In this document: positions 235 through 13,111 of the stretch, one piece after another
Layout: each line of letters starts with the position of its first letter
Numbering within the stretch: position 1 is the first letter of the stretch
From: a bacterium
Lineage (GTDB): Bacteria > Lindowbacteria > 2-12-FULL-62-27
Direction of reading: 5' to 3'
DNA length: 13,111 nucleotides
Assembly: GCA_016202645.1 (NCBI GenBank)
Contig: JACQOF010000040.1
Span: 1 to 13,111 of the forward strand
Program-made: the position numbers and the translations under genes
The notes under the pieces: model-generated
The model's database searches: none
What the model was told of the DNA's origin: nothing
Seen by the model: the letters and a program-made list of their open reading frames with translations, nothing else

Positions 235-295
235 TTTCTATCTCCTTGGCTGCCTACATTCGGCGTCAGCTATATGCCATAGTTGAACTGAGCCG

Positions 296-1405
296 TCACT
301 GTTGGAGACCTTCCTGACGGAGTTCAGCCTTGGACCCAAGGAATGCCCTCCAGCGCTCGAGTGTGCGTGCGGACGGGTCGTGAACGACGACTCGGGCGGC
401 GCCGGAGTTGAGACGGAGGATGAGCGGCAGTAGGAGCGTGCGGGCGGCATAGTCGCTTGCGGGAAGGCTGTAGCCTATGATCTCCACAAAGTTCGCGCGC
501 CATAGGTGCGCGGATGCCAGCGTCTAGATGTCGGCAAGCATAGGATGTGCAAAATGTTTTAAGAAGGAGGGGTACACCATGACGAGGTCGCTAGGCGAAT
601 AGTCCGTCGGTTCATGAGCGTCTCGGAGAGGAGTCGAGACATCGAGAAGTGGGAATGTGAACCCGGCGAGATACTCTGGTCCATCAAAAAAGAAGCGATC
701 ATTCAATCTCCGCCAACCGTATGAGCCGTGGAGCTTTAGTACAACAACCTCAGATGGTGGCGCTGAGCGCGCCGGTATTGAGTGTTTGATGCCGTTCTCG
801 GAATCGTGAACCAGCTGGCGCGGGAATCCGTAGCCGTCAGCCGGGTACCAGCGCCCATCTTCCGCAAGGGTTCTCTCCACCAAGGTATCCCAGTTGAAAG
901 TGATTACGGCATCGCCGCGAGCCAACGTGCTGAGGTGCCTGCGTAGGTAATCCCGTTCGGTTCGGGTTCTATTGCTGTCGTCGTGATGGCGAAAGGAGAA
1001 GAACCAGTCCAGACACTCGACAAGGTGGGCCCTGGCGGCCCGCGCCTCGCTCAGGATCGCGCGGCCCGCGGAGGAGAAGTACGCCTGAATGCCTTCGACA
1101 GTCGACTCTCCGGTGTTCTGGTGATGGCGGATGGCTCCGACGGTCCGAAATTCGTCCTCGAACTCCGCGGCGGCATCGAACAGGTCTGGTAGGGAAAGGA
1201 CGATCTCAGGATTCGAGCAAGAGCAAACAACCTCCAGTGCCGTGGGGAAGGCGCCCAGGAACGTCTCCCACCGTTTCCATGCTTCTTGAAACTGAACGGA
1301 CGCAGATCTGGACGCCTCCTCCCTCATCCGCGGCAGCAGTTCTTGAGCAGCCGGATACCCGGCTGGGCAGGAGGCACCTGCTCCTAAGATCAAGACGCTG
1401 GTCAT
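296..1405 (-). pseudogene. SIR2-like NAD-binding domain protein, interrupted by an in-frame TAG
   Basis: The reading frame starts at ATG 1405-1403 and shows the SIR2-like family signature. It has an N-terminal Rossmann glycine motif (LGAGASCPAGYP, residues 7-18), FNWD at 170-173 and LKLHGS at 223-228 with the likely catalytic His226. A TAG at 526-524 (codon 294) stops the ORF, giving 293 residues. The same frame stays open beyond it to a TGA at 298-296 and encodes the expected last motif IIGYSLPASD, so full length would be 369 residues. The residues around the stop read HPMLADI-stop-TLASAHLWRANFVEIIGYSLP; the family usually has Trp there, so TGG to TAG is the simplest explanation. Standalone SIR2-like proteins are common NADase effectors in anti-phage systems; that role here is inferred. 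The start lies 13 bases after an attC core, behind a CGGAG ribosome site. The 293-residue form might still be made, but it lacks part of the fold. Confidence 0.8.
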
Positions 1406-1418
1406 TCTTGTGTCTCCG

Positions 1419-1478
1419 GCCTAACGCTCCCGTTCACCAGCCGCGAGCGAGTCGGACTGGTGGACCGGGAAGTTATGC
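1419..1478 (-). other. integron attC-like recombination site
   Basis: Read on the minus strand, this 60-bp element has the attC plan. R-double-prime is GCATAAC (1478-1472), then spacer TT and arm CCCGGTCCACCAG. A 16-base centre forms a short CCG/CGG stem with an ACTCGCTCG loop. The returning arm is CTGGTGAACGGG, then spacer AGC, then core GTTAGGC (1425-1419). The outer boxes pair 6 of 7. The inner arms pair with one mismatch and one unpaired base, like the extrahelical base that sets attC polarity. The core is followed after 13 bases by the SIR2-like ATG, and the element begins 60 bases after the stop of the secreted-protein gene. Both distances fit cassette architecture. No integrase or attI is visible in the window. 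Confidence 0.75.
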
Positions 1479-1538: not shown

Positions 1539-1988
1539 TCATTCCTCGAACGGTTGCCACTCATGAACTTCGTATTGTGTCCCGTCGTCCAGTCGGCGCT
1601 TCAAAGTGATGAGCATCCATGTGTCGCCGATGTCGGTGTCAATGAGAAAGGTGTGTCGCGCTGCTATCCCGGACGTGAATATCTGGAAGCGCGGGCGAGA
1701 CGGGTTTGGGATCGATGGCCGGTCAAAGACGCGAAGCTCTTCCCACGAAACACCATCATCTTTGGTCTTGACCAAGAGCGCGACACGACCGGAAAAGCGG
1801 TCGAGGCGGAAAGTCCACTTCGCCGCGAGTTGGGACTGCACGATCTCGAACCGGCCGTCCGGCGGAGCAGCGGACCATTGGTGGACGCCGGTAGGCGTCT
1901 GCTGCGCGGTGGCGGGTGCGGCAAAGCACGCGACCACGAGCCACAGACCAACCACGCTTGGAAGCTGGCCTCTCGTCTCCCCGTTCAA
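1539..1988 (-). CDS. secreted protein of unknown function with an internal duplication
   Basis: The ORF encodes 149 residues. The start is TTG at 1988-1986 with AGGA just upstream; an in-frame TGA at 2012-2010 rules out a longer ATG form. Residues 12-28 (VVGLWLVVACFAAPATA) form a Sec signal peptide, with likely cleavage after Ala28, so the product is exported. The mature part holds two similar segments at 46-73 and 100-127, each following RF(E/Q)I, then Ser, AA(K/R), TF, D, G and L. This suggests a small beta-rich repeat fold. I do not recognise a named family or any catalytic motif. Its stop is followed after 60 bases by the attC-like site, so it may be the body of an integron cassette. No clear attC precedes it. 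Confidence 0.65.
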   Translation of the reverse strand: MNGETRGQLPSVVGLWLVVACFAAPATAQQTPTGVHQWSAAPPDGRFEIVQSQLAAKWTFRLDRFSGRVALLVKTKDDGVSWEELRVFDRPSIPNPSRPRFQIFTSGIAARHTFLIDTDIGDTWMLITLKRRLDDGTQYEVHEWQPFEE

Positions 1989-2087
1989 CGTGATCCTCGC
2001 GACCGGCTCTCAGTGCTCGGTTCAGTGCGAACTACTGTCGGAGCCTGCATCATCGATCGGCCGCAGCCGCAATGGCTCAAAGTGAAC

Positions 2088-2210
2088 TCATATCAACCAG
2101 TCGTCATATTCACCGGGCAGTTTACCCAGCAGGAGCGCCGGGCGCAGCTTCCCTCCCTCCAAATCGATCTGGGGAAACCGAAACAGAACGACCTGGCCGG
2201 CTTGTTTCAT
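2088..2210 (-). pseudogene. truncated PemK/MazF-family toxin
   Basis: The ATG (2210-2208) overlaps the antitoxin stop as ATGA, the usual arrangement for a toxin translated by coupling to its antitoxin. The 40 residues (MKQAGQVVLFRFPQ at the start, KLRPALLLGKLPGEYDDWLI at the end) match the N-terminal beta-sheet of PemK/MazF-type endoribonucleases, including the GxVVLFxFPxxD and KLRPALxL signatures. These toxins are normally about 110-120 residues long. Here a TGA at 2090-2088 follows WLI, where the family continues with a CMISSQ-type strand, and the next bases in any frame do not resume the family clearly. The C-terminal two thirds are therefore gone, probably by a deletion or by junction with the neighbouring accessory sequence. 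The fragment is unlikely to cleave RNA. Confidence 0.75.
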
Positions 2211-2434
2211 GAGAATATTGCCTTCAAGTCCGAAACGGTGTAGGTCGGAGTATCTTCCTCTTCCATCCCGCGCATGGCATAGGTCAGTGACAAATCCGAC
2301 CAGGTCCGCTCTTCCTGAAGAAGAGTGTTGCCTTCCACCTTGGCCAGAAGATACTCGACAAAGTCAAGCACTTCGGCCTGCAAGGCAGCGGGTAGCCTTT
2401 GAACGTATTGTTGAATTTTCTCGGCAATCACCAT
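2207..2434 (-). CDS. DUF2281-family antitoxin-like protein
   Basis: This 75-residue protein begins MVIAEKIQQYVQRLP and continues LQAEVLDFVEYLLAK, the conserved helical core of the DUF2281 family, followed by an acidic tail with SLTYAMRGMEEED and YTVSDLKAIFS. The ATG at 2434-2432 has a strong GGGAGG ribosome site. Proteins of this family are encoded just before PIN or MazF/PemK-type toxins, and here a PemK/MazF fragment overlaps the stop by four bases. The expected role is to bind and neutralise the toxin through its C-terminal tail and to repress its own promoter. Because the toxin is truncated, this looks like an orphan antitoxin. The gene itself appears intact. Confidence 0.8.
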   Translation of the reverse strand: MVIAEKIQQYVQRLPAALQAEVLDFVEYLLAKVEGNTLLQEERTWSDLSLTYAMRGMEEEDTPTYTVSDLKAIFS

Positions 2435-2895
2435 CGTACCCTCCCGTAGTGACCCATTGTCCGGGTTGTCTTCTATTCTACCTCAAAAGGTACTGAGCTG
2501 TGCACCCGGAGTGAGGGCGGAAGCTGGTTCTGAGTGGAGAAACTGCACAGGGACCATTTGGAAAGCTGCAGAGGGACAGGAGGAAAATCCTTGATCCATG
2601 CTCGGTTCTCTGGCAGTGAGGCTTGGTATCAAATGTAGGTCTACCGGTTCCGACTTCGAATATTTTAATCGCTCATCATCCGGCGGCACAAGGAGTTTTT
2701 CGGCCTCCAGAACAGCTCCCAAGCCCCCCGAGCCTTGTTGCTGTCTGTCTCGCGTCAGGCCGCCTTTGCCGGCCGGCCTCCCATCTACTTGCCGAACAGC
2801 ATCCGGACAACCGAGAGGGAACTTGTCTTGTGGTCGCGGGCTTTGTACGGACCAAGGGCTGACGCCAAACGAGGTTACCTATGCAAGGGGCTCAG
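2435..2895. other. gene-free stretch between kdpD and the antitoxin, with element relics
   Basis: No credible gene lies in these 461 bases. The part near 2536-2578 has two imperfect repeats 23 bp apart, GGAGAAACTGCACAGGGACC and GGAAAGCTGCAGAGGGACA, which resemble the multiple terminal repeats of IS21-family elements. Around 2842-2885 a plus-strand frame reads GLTPNEVTYARG, similar to the tail of some DDE integrase/transposase proteins, but the rest of such a protein is not recognisable. No response-regulator sequence (kdpE) is present and no clear hairpin terminator follows kdpD. I interpret the stretch as debris from old insertions. Confidence 0.4.
2475..2504 (-). promoter_or_regulatory. possible promoter of the toxin-antitoxin pair
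   Basis: On the minus strand TGCACA (2504-2499) and TAGAAT (2480-2475) are separated by 18 bp and lie about 40 bp upstream of the antitoxin ATG. The -10 matches the sigma-70 consensus 5 of 6 and the -35 matches 4 of 6. This is a weak, pattern-only call. Confidence 0.25.
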
Positions 2896-5604
2896 CTACG
2901 GGAGCCTGGGCATCTCCGGCGGGGTCTCTTTTGCCGGCAGCGTGAAGCGGAATACGGCGCCGCCGCCCGGGCGATTCTCGGCCCAGATCTTGCCGCCGTG
3001 GGCCTCGACGATCGCCCGGCAGATGGCGAGGCCCAAGCCCACCCCTCGACTGTCGCTAGTCTGGCCCCGATAGAACTTGTCGAATATGCGCTGCGCCTCG
3101 CCGGGTCCGAACCCCGGCCCCCGGTCGGCCACCTCCACCAGCACGGCGGCGTCGGTCAGGGACGCGGAGATGTCGATTCCACTCCTCACCGGGGTGTACT
3201 TGAGGCCATTATCCAGAAGGTTGATGAAGACCTGCTCGATCAGGGTGCCGTCGATCCGGACGAGCGGCAGATCGGCGGGCACGTGGATGTTTATCGGATG
3301 ATCGCGGAACCGCTTCCCCATCCGGGCCAGGGCCGTGCCTACGACTTCCTCCAGCGGATGCCAGTCCTTCTTTACCGGGAGCGCGCCGGCCTCGATCCGG
3401 GTCATGTCGAGGAGGTTGCTGACGAGGCGGTTCAGCCGTTCCGCCTCGTCGACAATGGACTGCAGCAGGTCTTGCCAGGTTCCGCGCTGGAAGTGTGTCC
3501 CGTTCTCCAGCAGGCTGCCGGCGGCTCCCATGATCGTGGTCAGGGGCGTCCGGAGGTCGTGGGAAATCGAGCTGAACAACGCGTTCCGCAGCCGTTCCGC
3601 CTCGGCCCTGACCTGGGCCTGCTGCGCCGCCTCCGCGAGCTGGGCGCGTTCGATGGCCAGAGCGGCCTGGTTTGCAAACGTCTCCAACAGGTGCAACTGC
3701 TCGGGATCGGCAAACGCGTGCGGGTTCGAGGGCTTTATCCCGAGGACGCCGACAATCCCCTGCGAGGCGATCAGGGGGATATAGAGCGCCTGGGCGCCCG
3801 GGAGAGTCTCCGTTTCCAGGCCGGCTATCTGCCGATGCTCGAACACCCATTGGCCGACCGCGCCCTCGTCCGCGTCGATTTCGAACGGAGCCGGGTGCGC
3901 GGCTCCCTGGACGAGGCCGCCTTCCGTCCTGGGGAGCAGGATAACGACCTGACCGGCGAACACCTCGTGGATGTGCCGGGCGGCGGTCCGCATCAGGGTT
4001 TCGGCGCCTCGCGTGCCGGCCAATTCCCGGCTCAGGTCATACAGGGCCGCCGTCCGCCGCTCGCGATGCCGCGCGGCGTCGGCCTGCCGGCGGATGCGCA
4101 CCGTGAGGCTGCTCACCACGATCGCCACCACAAGCATCACGGCGAAGGTGACAAAGTATCGCACGTCGCTGACCGCGAAGGTGAAGCGCGGCGGCACGAA
4201 GAAGAGGTCGAAGGCCGCGACGCTGAGGATTGACGTCAGGATGGTGAAGGGGCGGCTGAGCCGTGGGGCGACCAGCACCGTACCCAGCAGGTACACCATG
4301 ATGATGTTCGATATTTCGGAATACGGGAACATCACCCACGCCAGGGCCGTACACAGTCCCACCGTCCCTGCCGCCCACCCGAGCTGCCGCCAGTGGGTCG
4401 GTCGGGTGGGCCGACCGGCGCGCCGAGGCGAGGGCTCGCCTTCTTCGCCGCGGATGACGTACACGTCGATGCCGCCGCTGCGCCGGATCAGCTCGTCAAC
4501 CGCCGAGCCGGAGAGGATCTCTCTCCAGCGGGGCCCCGCTGGTTTGCCCACGATGATCTTGCTGACGTTCCGCGCCTGGGCGTACGCCAGGATCTCCTCG
4601 GTGACGCTCTGGCCGCTGAGCGTAACCGTCTGCCCGCCCAACTGCTCGGCGAGGCGGAGCGTTCTTGCCAGACCCTCGCGGTCCGTCTCAGACAGGCGCA
4701 CGTGATCCGGCGTCTCGACGTAAACGGTCATCCATTCGGCATGCAGGCGGGCCGCCATCCGGCGGGCGGCGCGCACCAGCTTCACCCCCAGCGGTCCGGC
4801 CCGGACGCAGACCAGGAGCCGTTCCGCGGCGGGCCACGTCCGGTCGATGGCGTGATCCCGCATGTAGGCCTGCATCTGCTCGTCCACGCGATCGGCCGTC
4901 CGCCGGAGAGCCAGCTCGCGCAGCGCGATCAGATTCCCCTTGCGGAAGAAGTTGCGAATGGCCTCCCGGGCCTGCTCCGGCACGTAGACCTTGCCTTCCT
5001 TGAGGCGCTGGAGGAGTTCTTCCGGAGGCAGGTCAACCAGCTCCACCTCGTCCGCCCGTTCGAGAACGGAGTCGGGGACCGTCTCGTGCACCCGGACTCC
5101 CGTGATCTGGGCGACCACGTCGTTGAGACTCTCCAGGTGCTGGACGTTGAGGGTGGTATAGACATTGATCCCGGCCTCGATGATCTCCTGGACGTCCTGC
5201 CACCGCTTCGTGTGGCGGGAGCCGGGGGCGTTGGTGTGGGCAAGCTCATCCACCAGGATCAGAGCCGGACGCCGCGCCAGGGCTGCGTCCAGGTCGAATT
5301 CCTTGAGGATTGTGCCGCGGTACTCGAGGGGGCGGCGGGCGAGGATCTCGATCCCCTCGAGGAGCGCCTCGGTCTCCGCCCGCCCGTGGGTATCCACCCA
5401 GCCCGCCACGACGTCCATGCCCTCGGCTCGACGCGCGTGGGCGGCTTCGAGCATGGCGTACGTCTTGCCCACGCCCGCGGCGGCCCCCAGGAAGACCTTC
5501 AGCTTGCCGCGGGTCTGCCTGGCCTCCTCCTCCTTGACGCGGGCGAGGAGGGCATCGGGATCGGGGCGGTGCTCGTTGCGTGCCGAATTTCCAGGTGAGG
5601 ACAT
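2896..5604 (-). CDS. kdpD: osmosensitive K+ channel sensor histidine kinase KdpD
   Basis: KdpD senses low K+ or salt stress and phosphorylates the response regulator KdpE to induce the kdp operon. With the start at ATG 5604-5602 the protein has 902 residues. The N-terminal KdpD domain has a Walker A GAAAGVGKT (about 40-48), GWVDTHGR and a DELAHTN motif (about 119-125). A universal-stress-protein-like domain (about 260-385) follows. Four membrane helices lie between about 410 and 500, then a GAF-like domain (about 520-655). The kinase core has H-box SISHDLRTP with phospho-acceptor His682, N-box NLLDNGLKYTP, DRGPGFG and GVGLGLAI. The upstream ATG at 5622 is rejected because AAGGGG before ATG 5604 makes a proper ribosome site; this start lies one base after the kdpC stop. 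The usual partner kdpE does not follow. Confidence 0.95.
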   Translation of the reverse strand: MSSPGNSARNEHRPDPDALLARVKEEEARQTRGKLKVFLGAAAGVGKTYAMLEAAHARRAEGMDVVAGWVDTHGRAETEALLEGIEILARRPLEYRGTILKEFDLDAALARRPALILVDELAHTNAPGSRHTKRWQDVQEIIEAGINVYTTLNVQHLESLNDVVAQITGVRVHETVPDSVLERADEVELVDLPPEELLQRLKEGKVYVPEQAREAIRNFFRKGNLIALRELALRRTADRVDEQMQAYMRDHAIDRTWPAAERLLVCVRAGPLGVKLVRAARRMAARLHAEWMTVYVETPDHVRLSETDREGLARTLRLAEQLGGQTVTLSGQSVTEEILAYAQARNVSKIIVGKPAGPRWREILSGSAVDELIRRSGGIDVYVIRGEEGEPSPRRAGRPTRPTHWRQLGWAAGTVGLCTALAWVMFPYSEISNIIMVYLLGTVLVAPRLSRPFTILTSILSVAAFDLFFVPPRFTFAVSDVRYFVTFAVMLVVAIVVSSLTVRIRRQADAARHRERRTAALYDLSRELAGTRGAETLMRTAARHIHEVFAGQVVILLPRTEGGLVQGAAHPAPFEIDADEGAVGQWVFEHRQIAGLETETLPGAQALYIPLIASQGIVGVLGIKPSNPHAFADPEQLHLLETFANQAALAIERAQLAEAAQQAQVRAEAERLRNALFSSISHDLRTPLTTIMGAAGSLLENGTHFQRGTWQDLLQSIVDEAERLNRLVSNLLDMTRIEAGALPVKKDWHPLEEVVGTALARMGKRFRDHPINIHVPADLPLVRIDGTLIEQVFINLLDNGLKYTPVRSGIDISASLTDAAVLVEVADRGPGFGPGEAQRIFDKFYRGQTSDSRGVGLGLAICRAIVEAHGGKIWAENRPGGGAVFRFTLPAKETPPEMPRLP

Positions 5605-12005: not shown

Positions 12006-12035
12006 ATGATAGCAAATCACCTCCTTTCCTGGCAA
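12006..12035 (-). promoter_or_regulatory. sigma-70-type promoter for the Smr-SDR unit
   Basis: The minus strand shows TTGCCA (12035-12030), an 18-bp spacer and TATCAT (12011-12006). Each box matches the consensus 5 of 6. Transcription would begin near 11999, about 28 bases ahead of the Smr ATG. The upstream terminator after pal supports a new transcription unit here. No such strong promoter is seen before kdp. Confidence 0.55.
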
Positions 12036-12133
12036 ATAGGTTCGGCCCGGGCGCGAGGATCTAGGAAGTCGCTCGTTTTCGCGGAAAGTCTTGAGGAGAA
12101 ATGGTGGAAGGCCGGAACAGAGTGAGCCGGAGG

Positions 12134-12174
12134 CCAAAAAAGAAGAGGGGAGGGAAAGTGTTTTCCCTCCCCTC
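12134..12174 (-). terminator. intrinsic terminator after pal
   Basis: On the minus strand, GAGGGGAGGGAAA (12174-12162) pairs perfectly over 13 bp with TTTCCCTCCCCTC (12157-12145) across a four-base loop, followed by TCTTTTTT. It begins nine bases after the pal stop, and it ends the tol-pal transcript before the Smr promoter. Confidence 0.92.
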
Positions 12175-12182
12175 TGGAGCGT

Positions 12183-12740
12183 TTAGTTGGCTTGTTCTGA
12201 AAATTCAGCGCGCCGGTTTTTGGACCAGATCGCCTCAGTGTGCCCCTCGACCAGGGGGCGCTCTTCACCATAGCTGATCGTATAGATGCGGGAGGGATCC
12301 ACGCCCAGAGACATGACGAAGTCCCGGGTGGCCAGAGCCCGCTGCTCGCCCAGGGAGAGATTATACTCCATCGTTCCGCGCTCGTCCGCGTGCCCTTCGA
12401 TGCGGATCACGAGCTTAGGATTTTGTTTGAGCCAATCCGCATTTTTCCTGAGGACTTCTTTGGACTCTTCCGTCAGTTGGGCTTTGTCGTATTCAAAGTA
12501 GATCCTCTGCAAGGATCCGCTTTCCACAAAAACGAGGCCGCGGCCGCCTCCCATTGTGCGGCTGCCGTCGGATTCGAAACTCCTGCCGCTGCCGTCGGAT
12601 TCGAGACTCCTGCCGCTGCCCCACGAGTCCTGATCCCCCATAGTGCCGCCGCGCTTTGCCTGAATCGAGGTGCTGCTGCAGCCCGCAGCCAGGACCAGGA
12701 CTCCCACGATTGCCATCAACCAAAACATTCTTCTCTTCAT
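12183..12740 (-). CDS. pal: peptidoglycan-associated lipoprotein Pal
   Basis: Pal anchors the outer membrane to peptidoglycan and works with TolB in the Tol-Pal system during cell constriction. The 185-residue precursor has a lipoprotein signal ending in the lipobox LAAG-Cys21. A Gly/Ser-rich linker follows (about 30-68) and contains a duplicated GSGR-SxESD unit. The C-terminal OmpA-like domain (about 75-182) has IYFEYDKAQLT, the peptidoglycan-binding block IRIEGHADERGTMEYNLSLGEQRA, VMSLGV, YGEERP and NRRAEF. The ATG at 12740 has a strong GGAGGAGG ribosome site. It follows tolB by 41 bp. The usual next gene cpoB/ybgF is absent, and a terminator comes instead. Confidence 0.95.
   Translation of the reverse strand: MKRRMFWLMAIVGVLVLAAGCSSTSIQAKRGGTMGDQDSWGSGRSLESDGSGRSFESDGSRTMGGGRGLVFVESGSLQRIYFEYDKAQLTEESKEVLRKNADWLKQNPKLVIRIEGHADERGTMEYNLSLGEQRALATRDFVMSLGVDPSRIYTISYGEERPLVEGHTEAIWSKNRRAEFSEQAN
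12564..12617 (-). repeat. 27-bp tandem duplication inside pal
   Basis: Two adjacent 27-bp copies (12564-12590 and 12591-12617) differ at one base. They encode two nine-residue units of the type GSGRS(L/F)ESD in the linker between the lipid anchor and the OmpA-like domain. The length is a multiple of three, so the frame is kept. Confidence 0.9.
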
Positions 12741-12781
12741 CTCTACCTCCTCCTATGTTGAGTTTCGGACTTGTTTGTTTC

Positions 12782-13111
12782 TTAACGACTCGCCGCCATT
12801 CCTCCTTTCCGGTCGCTAGGTTTGTCCGGGACGCCCTTTAGGGCATGCTCGCTGGAAACGGCCCGCGGAGACCAGACCGGGCTTGTCGCCCTACGCGTGT
12901 AGGTCAAGCGCCGGATTCCGGAGCCGTCCATGTGCATTACATAGATGTCTGGACCACCCGATCTGGTGGAGCTGAAGACGATGTGGCGTCCATCGGGCGA
13001 CCAGCTCGGGTGCTCGTTGTTCCCTGCTCTGGAGGTAAGTTGGAAAAGCTCCCCGCTTTTCATATCCAGGACAAAGATGTCAAAGAACCCTTGCTTGCGC
13101 ATGGAAAGGGC
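12782..13111 (-). CDS. tolB: Tol-Pal system protein TolB, C-terminal part (partial)
   Basis: The frame is open to the right window edge and gives the last 109 residues. Two beta-propeller blades of the TolB/PD40 type are visible: FFDIFVLDMKSGELFQLT, then EHPSWSPDGRHIVFSSTRSG, then PDIYVMHMDGSGIRRLT, then TSPVWSPR. TolB is the periplasmic partner of Pal. The final 25 residues (after VWSP) are charged and not propeller-like. The stop lies 41 bp before pal, so the two genes form one unit. The N-terminal domain is outside the window. Confidence 0.88.
   Translation of the reverse strand, partial: ALSMRKQGFFDIFVLDMKSGELFQLTSRAGNNEHPSWSPDGRHIVFSSTRSGGPDIYVMHMDGSGIRRLTYTRRATSPVWSPRAVSSEHALKGVPDKPSDRKGGMAASR

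Follow-up and report, generated by a model that had tools for sequence, protein, structure and literature searches.

The window analysed here, a stretch of 13,111 bp, is one whole contig (C11) of the fragmented draft genome G000, with no sequence to the left of position 1. An attC site was found 1.4 kb from the contig edge, on the same strand as both of the genes that flank it. The gene of a predicted secreted protein lies upstream of the site and a SIR2-like gene lies downstream, with its ATG shortly beyond the R' box. The following features were assigned, with the basis of each given in brackets:

1419..1478, minus strand: complete attC site, R''-L''-loop-L'-R' (covariance model R1, 30.5 bits, E=9.6e-6, model positions 1-52)
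1472..1478, minus strand: R'' box GCATAAC (sequence and alignment to the R'' of the model)
1419..1425, minus strand: R' box GTTAGGC, a full match to GTTRRRY (sequence and alignment to the R' of the model)
1426..1471, minus strand: L'' and L' arms, with the spacers TTCCC/GGGAGC closed and a terminal loop of 9 nt (DNA fold and spacer comparison)
1539..1988, minus strand: gene of a 149-aa predicted secreted protein, whose cassette would own the attC (open reading frame; signal-like N terminus by reading)
296..1405, minus strand: SIR2-like gene, its frame interrupted by TAG at 524-526, which leaves 293 aa open (524-1405) (PADLOC SIR2, Pfam, homologues L092 and L093)

The SIR2-like product was recognized by the PADLOC SIR2 model (E=3.2e-9) and scored just below the cut-off of Pfam SIR2_2. 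GAGAS, TFNWD and LKLHGS motifs were found in its sequence, and the protein may have NAD-dependent activity. Its homologues in two other genomes (L092 and L093, about 38% identical) align past the TAG, and the frame in the window runs on to a TGA at 296; barring a sequencing error at the TAG, the gene is therefore truncated or otherwise broken. Beyond the full frame there are about 290 bp of contig without a detectable attC. A stretch behind the frame's true end (252-310, minus strand) was considered as a decayed attC and rejected, as it gave at most 3.3 bits and a fold z of -0.95, no better than shuffles. The 149-aa secreted protein had no Pfam or NCBIfam match, and searches of two relatives and of 80 genomes from an integrase-rich phylum found no homologue of it. 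No homologues of either gene were found in plasmids or viral contigs, and in the other genomes searched the homologues of neither gene lay beside an attC. At 2088-2434, on the minus strand, the gene of a DUF2281 protein (2E-7) is followed by a 40-aa frame that, by eye, resembles the truncated start of a PemK/MazF-type toxin. This frame had no Pfam match; the two together are possibly a broken toxin-antitoxin pair adjoining the cassette region.

The earlier note on this DNA had described an attC-like site with GCATAAC and GTTAGGC boxes at 1419-1478 and had asked for a covariance-model search of the window and of at least 50 kb to its left; such flanking DNA does not exist, the window being the whole contig. 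Since Rfam, at its gathering thresholds, gave no match in the window, we built our own attC model. For this purpose, plasmid integrons and the genomes of an integrase-rich phylum supplied attC sites, and 36 sites of canonical layout were aligned after their loops had been trimmed. The site of the window was left out of this home-made model, R1, which is not the model of IntegronFinder. In the structure imposed on R1, 90% of the cells pair and 11 of the 16 pairs vary on both sides; slid controls drop to 22-45%. The training sites were picked by attC rules, so this support indicates a sensible model rather than an independent proof of the structure. Because cmsearch with the filters off missed longer-looped sites that were found in default mode, both modes were used.

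R1 gave a significant match to the site over its full length (1-52) on the minus strand, with 30.5 bits and E=9.6e-6. The same site scored 15 bits on the plus strand, and the next-best match in the window reached 8.3 bits. Over the whole nominal bin G000, the E-value of the site was 0.0021. Integron sites in the same search, many of them members of the training set, mostly scored 27-52 bits, and the maximum in 86 kb of control DNA searched with the filters off was 19.4 bits. No match at E<=0.1 was obtained in 12 of 15 other genomes, the best 150 first-look candidates per genome being scored. In a rule-based scan, the site scored 18, and first-order simulated DNA gave 4 such sites in 1.54 Mb. 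By the covariance model, the attC-like element of the earlier note at 1419-1478 is thus a true attC.

Read on the minus strand, the 60-base element has the order GCATAAC-TTCCC-GGTCCACCAG-...-CTGGTGAAC-GGGAGC-GTTAGGC, where L'' lies inside GGTCCACCAG and L' is CTGGTGAAC. The R'' and R' boxes pair at 6 of 7 positions, and R'' departs from the RYYYAAC-like consensus at one position. Folded as single-stranded DNA, the site reached -18.2 kcal/mol (z -2.6), and only 1 of 200 shuffles was as good or better. The arms had been described as pairing with one bulge and one mismatch. The mismatch, one G.A, is there, but the fold has two bulged bases, C and T, which lie 6 nt apart in the R''-L'' arm. The bottom strand thus offers an extra-helical G and, as the second extra-helical base, an A. 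An extra-helical G is absolutely conserved on the attC bottom strand, and a second extra-helical base, usually T, occurs at a described spacing (PMC2727003); in the window site the spacing is as described, but the base is A instead of T. Since the extra-helical bases belong to the R''-L'' arm, the minus strand is the attC top strand, and the owning cassette lies upstream on the minus strand. This assignment agrees with the strand of both flanking genes, and the spacing to both is typical.

The spacers of the site are complementary, a feature that the earlier note did not contain. Four nucleotides of TTCCC can pair with GGGAGC (TCCC/GGGA), and this is the longest run among the 48 sites compared (47 others); some accepted attC sites likewise show spacer pairs in the predicted fold. 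Pairing of the central spacer of VCR lowered integration/recombination (PMC2727003). The window site is a good attC by sequence, but with its closed spacer it would probably be a poor substrate for recombination.

Searches of 1-560 and 1960-2900 with the filters off yielded no second attC, and R1 gave none elsewhere on the contig, so the proposed cluster of attC sites did not hold up. The reported lack of an integrase was confirmed, TIGR02249 giving no match on the contig; a complete integron, which needs an intI gene with attI beside the array, is thus not present there. GTTGAAC at 1983-1989 is a weak candidate for a cassette start, and no attC lies ahead of it. In the filters-off search of 1960-2900 with R1, the DNA upstream of this gene showed no identifiable cassette boundary for the secreted protein. 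The proposal that both genes were moved as cassettes can be accepted in part. For the secreted-protein gene, the orientation of the site fits. For the SIR2-like gene, such a movement is suggested by the complete R' before its ATG, and against it stand the missing attC after the gene, the in-frame stop, and four homologue loci in four other genomes, around which no attC was found.

The origin of the contig was examined by comparison with other genomes. Positions 12020-13111, at the right end of the contig, are 99.45% identical across 1,092 bp to positions 1-1092 of contig C165 of genome G032, which does not belong to the nominal family, and C165 carries on with tol genes past the matched stretch. 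The Pal protein encoded in the window shares 99% identity with a G032 protein, and its best match inside the nominal family has 37% identity. At the other end of the window, positions 29-88 encode, as read by eye, the C-terminal tail of a transposase-like protein, RLAQLIAIVGRPKAKPFSKQQKAIMQA, which is followed by the 16-nt repeat TGCAAGCCTGACCCCC. A stretch of 42-60 nt similar to this tail was present in two G032 contigs and nowhere else in G000. Judged by these sequence matches, the contig is probably DNA of the G032 species that was mis-binned in G000; conversely, the G032 contig may be the misplaced one. The case calls for caution, because with a contig apparently mis-binned the assignment of cassettes to organisms in draft genomes can be wrong.

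In G032, three more scattered attC matches (34.0, 27.8 and 22.2 bits) were found on different contigs, and two of them adjoin genes such as those of a protein with an FRG domain and of a GIY-YIG protein. The 34-bit site (L112 9924-9983) is a lone attC in the interior of the 38-kb contig C48; no other match was present in the 20 kb read around it. No integrase was found in G032 at E<=1e-40, a threshold at which integrase fragments would be missed.

The nominal bin G000 also has R1 matches on contigs C106, C40, C3, C128, C47 and C5, and it carries two broken integron-integrase genes, one on C128 (internal deletion) and one on C106 (C-terminal part only). These remnants were considered as the source of the window site and dropped after the contig had matched another genome; as the contig is likely mis-binned, they should not be credited to this organism. 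On C128, the integrase pseudogene (L010 444-1102) is oriented like the two cassettes with attC sites that come after it, the first of which codes for a Shedu SduA-like protein. On C106, one strand of L011 1062-2374 holds the C-terminal integrase remnant (2054-2374) and then the gene of an Mrr-type restriction endonuclease with an attC at its end (L011 1062-1129). Other attC-bearing contigs of G000 (L086, L087, L088 and L016) carry defence-like genes: FRG domain, SduA_C, HNH endonuclease and GmrSD. In L016, two neighbouring open reading frames of exactly 575 aa each (1767-3494 and 3605-5332) lie on either side of an attC, and only the second gave a GmrSD_N match.

We conclude, with a probability of about 0.75, that the window holds a genuine integron-cassette attC with no integrase beside it, i.e., a SALIN, as a remnant in a bacterial genome. 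The three scattered attC matches in G032, the genome most like the contig, together with the lack of an integrase there at 1e-40, were counted in favour of this reading. The secreted-protein cassette would owe its place to a past integron integrase, in the lineage or in a donor, which recombined the bottom (plus) strand, in its folded form, at G^TT of R'. Right behind R', the SIR2-like gene was probably the next cassette, and its own attC would have been lost since. Loss of the integrase and of the remainder of any array would then have left the lone attC. What is seen now is probably a decaying, immobile cassette remnant. The site itself is probably inert: it has a closed central spacer, no accompanying integrase was found, and the adjacent SIR2-like frame ends prematurely.

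As the contig edge lies only 1.4 kb to the left, the site could instead be the last visible attC of a longer array, either a CALIN or a complete integron, cut by the contig end. The window is a whole contig ending near the site, the perfect GTTAGGC R' with the SIR2-like gene straight behind it looks array-like, and other attC matches occur both in the nominal bin and in G032. On the other hand, no attC is detectable behind the SIR2-like gene despite the sequence available beyond its full frame, the solitary site on G032 contig C48 indicates that lone sites occur there, and the left contig end is the transposase-like tail that recurs in G032, with no attC. A longer array is therefore unlikely. 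It is quite improbable that an integrase placed just one cassette at a secondary, non-attI site next to a resident SIR2-like gene. The single attC and the SIR2-like gene without one of its own would agree with such an event, but R' is a complete GTTRRRY pairing with R'' at 6 of 7 positions, which a secondary site need not supply, and no cassette start complementary to R'' (TTATGC) was found upstream of the secreted-protein gene. We regard as very improbable the broader proposal that single attC sites scattered through this lineage, the window site with its closed spacer among them, are more than decay, being landing marks of cassettes that brought defence-like genes singly into the chromosome, where they were then locked; the genes in question are the SIR2-like gene here and, at other G032 sites, those of an FRG and a GIY-YIG protein. 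An ordinary intergenic hairpin (a terminator or repeat palindrome) that resembles an attC by chance would account for the stable stem and for the alternative flank pairing GGCC/GGCC predicted on the minus strand, but it is extremely unlikely, as no T-run or terminator-like site was found, the sequence is unrepeated in the genome, the score lies well above the control maximum, and the strand, bulges and spacings are right.

The integron cassette SALIN, as the preferred reading, can be compared with systems described before. By default, IntegronFinder 2.0 reports a CALIN when at least two attC sites are present, with the note that a lone site may also be genuine (PMC9024848). The term SALIN denotes a single attC lacking an integron-integrase and is used in PMC9229058, which reports 115 orphan cassettes in Shewanella, and in PMC12690207. 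Within the 13.1-kb contig there is exactly one attC and no integrase nearby, so by current usage the site is a SALIN and not a CALIN, with which it shares an attC without an integrase; nor does the contig hold a complete integron. Like other SALINs, it has one attC, a neighbouring open reading frame in matching orientation and a contig without integrase. It differs in coming from a poorly sampled lineage and in its closed spacers, and its singleness holds for the assembled draft sequence only. Remnants in Treponema phagedenis likewise keep attC and cassettes without intI; they were read as integron loss, and the related species in that case keep integrons (PMC3607928). Anti-phage activity of integron cassettes has already been published for Vibrio (reviewed in PMC12409362), so the SIR2-like neighbour fits that picture and is no surprise. 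A class 1 integron attC at the blaVIM-2/aac(6')-IIc junction (L026 6905-6976) has the identical R'' GCATAAC and R' GTTAGGC, and shares with the window site one extra base in L'' and the C before R'; it differs in the loop and arms, and complementarity between its spacers is lower, with a run of 3. A lone attC remnant without an integrase is thus an already known kind, to which the window site adds one case from a poorly sampled lineage with almost no sampled relatives.
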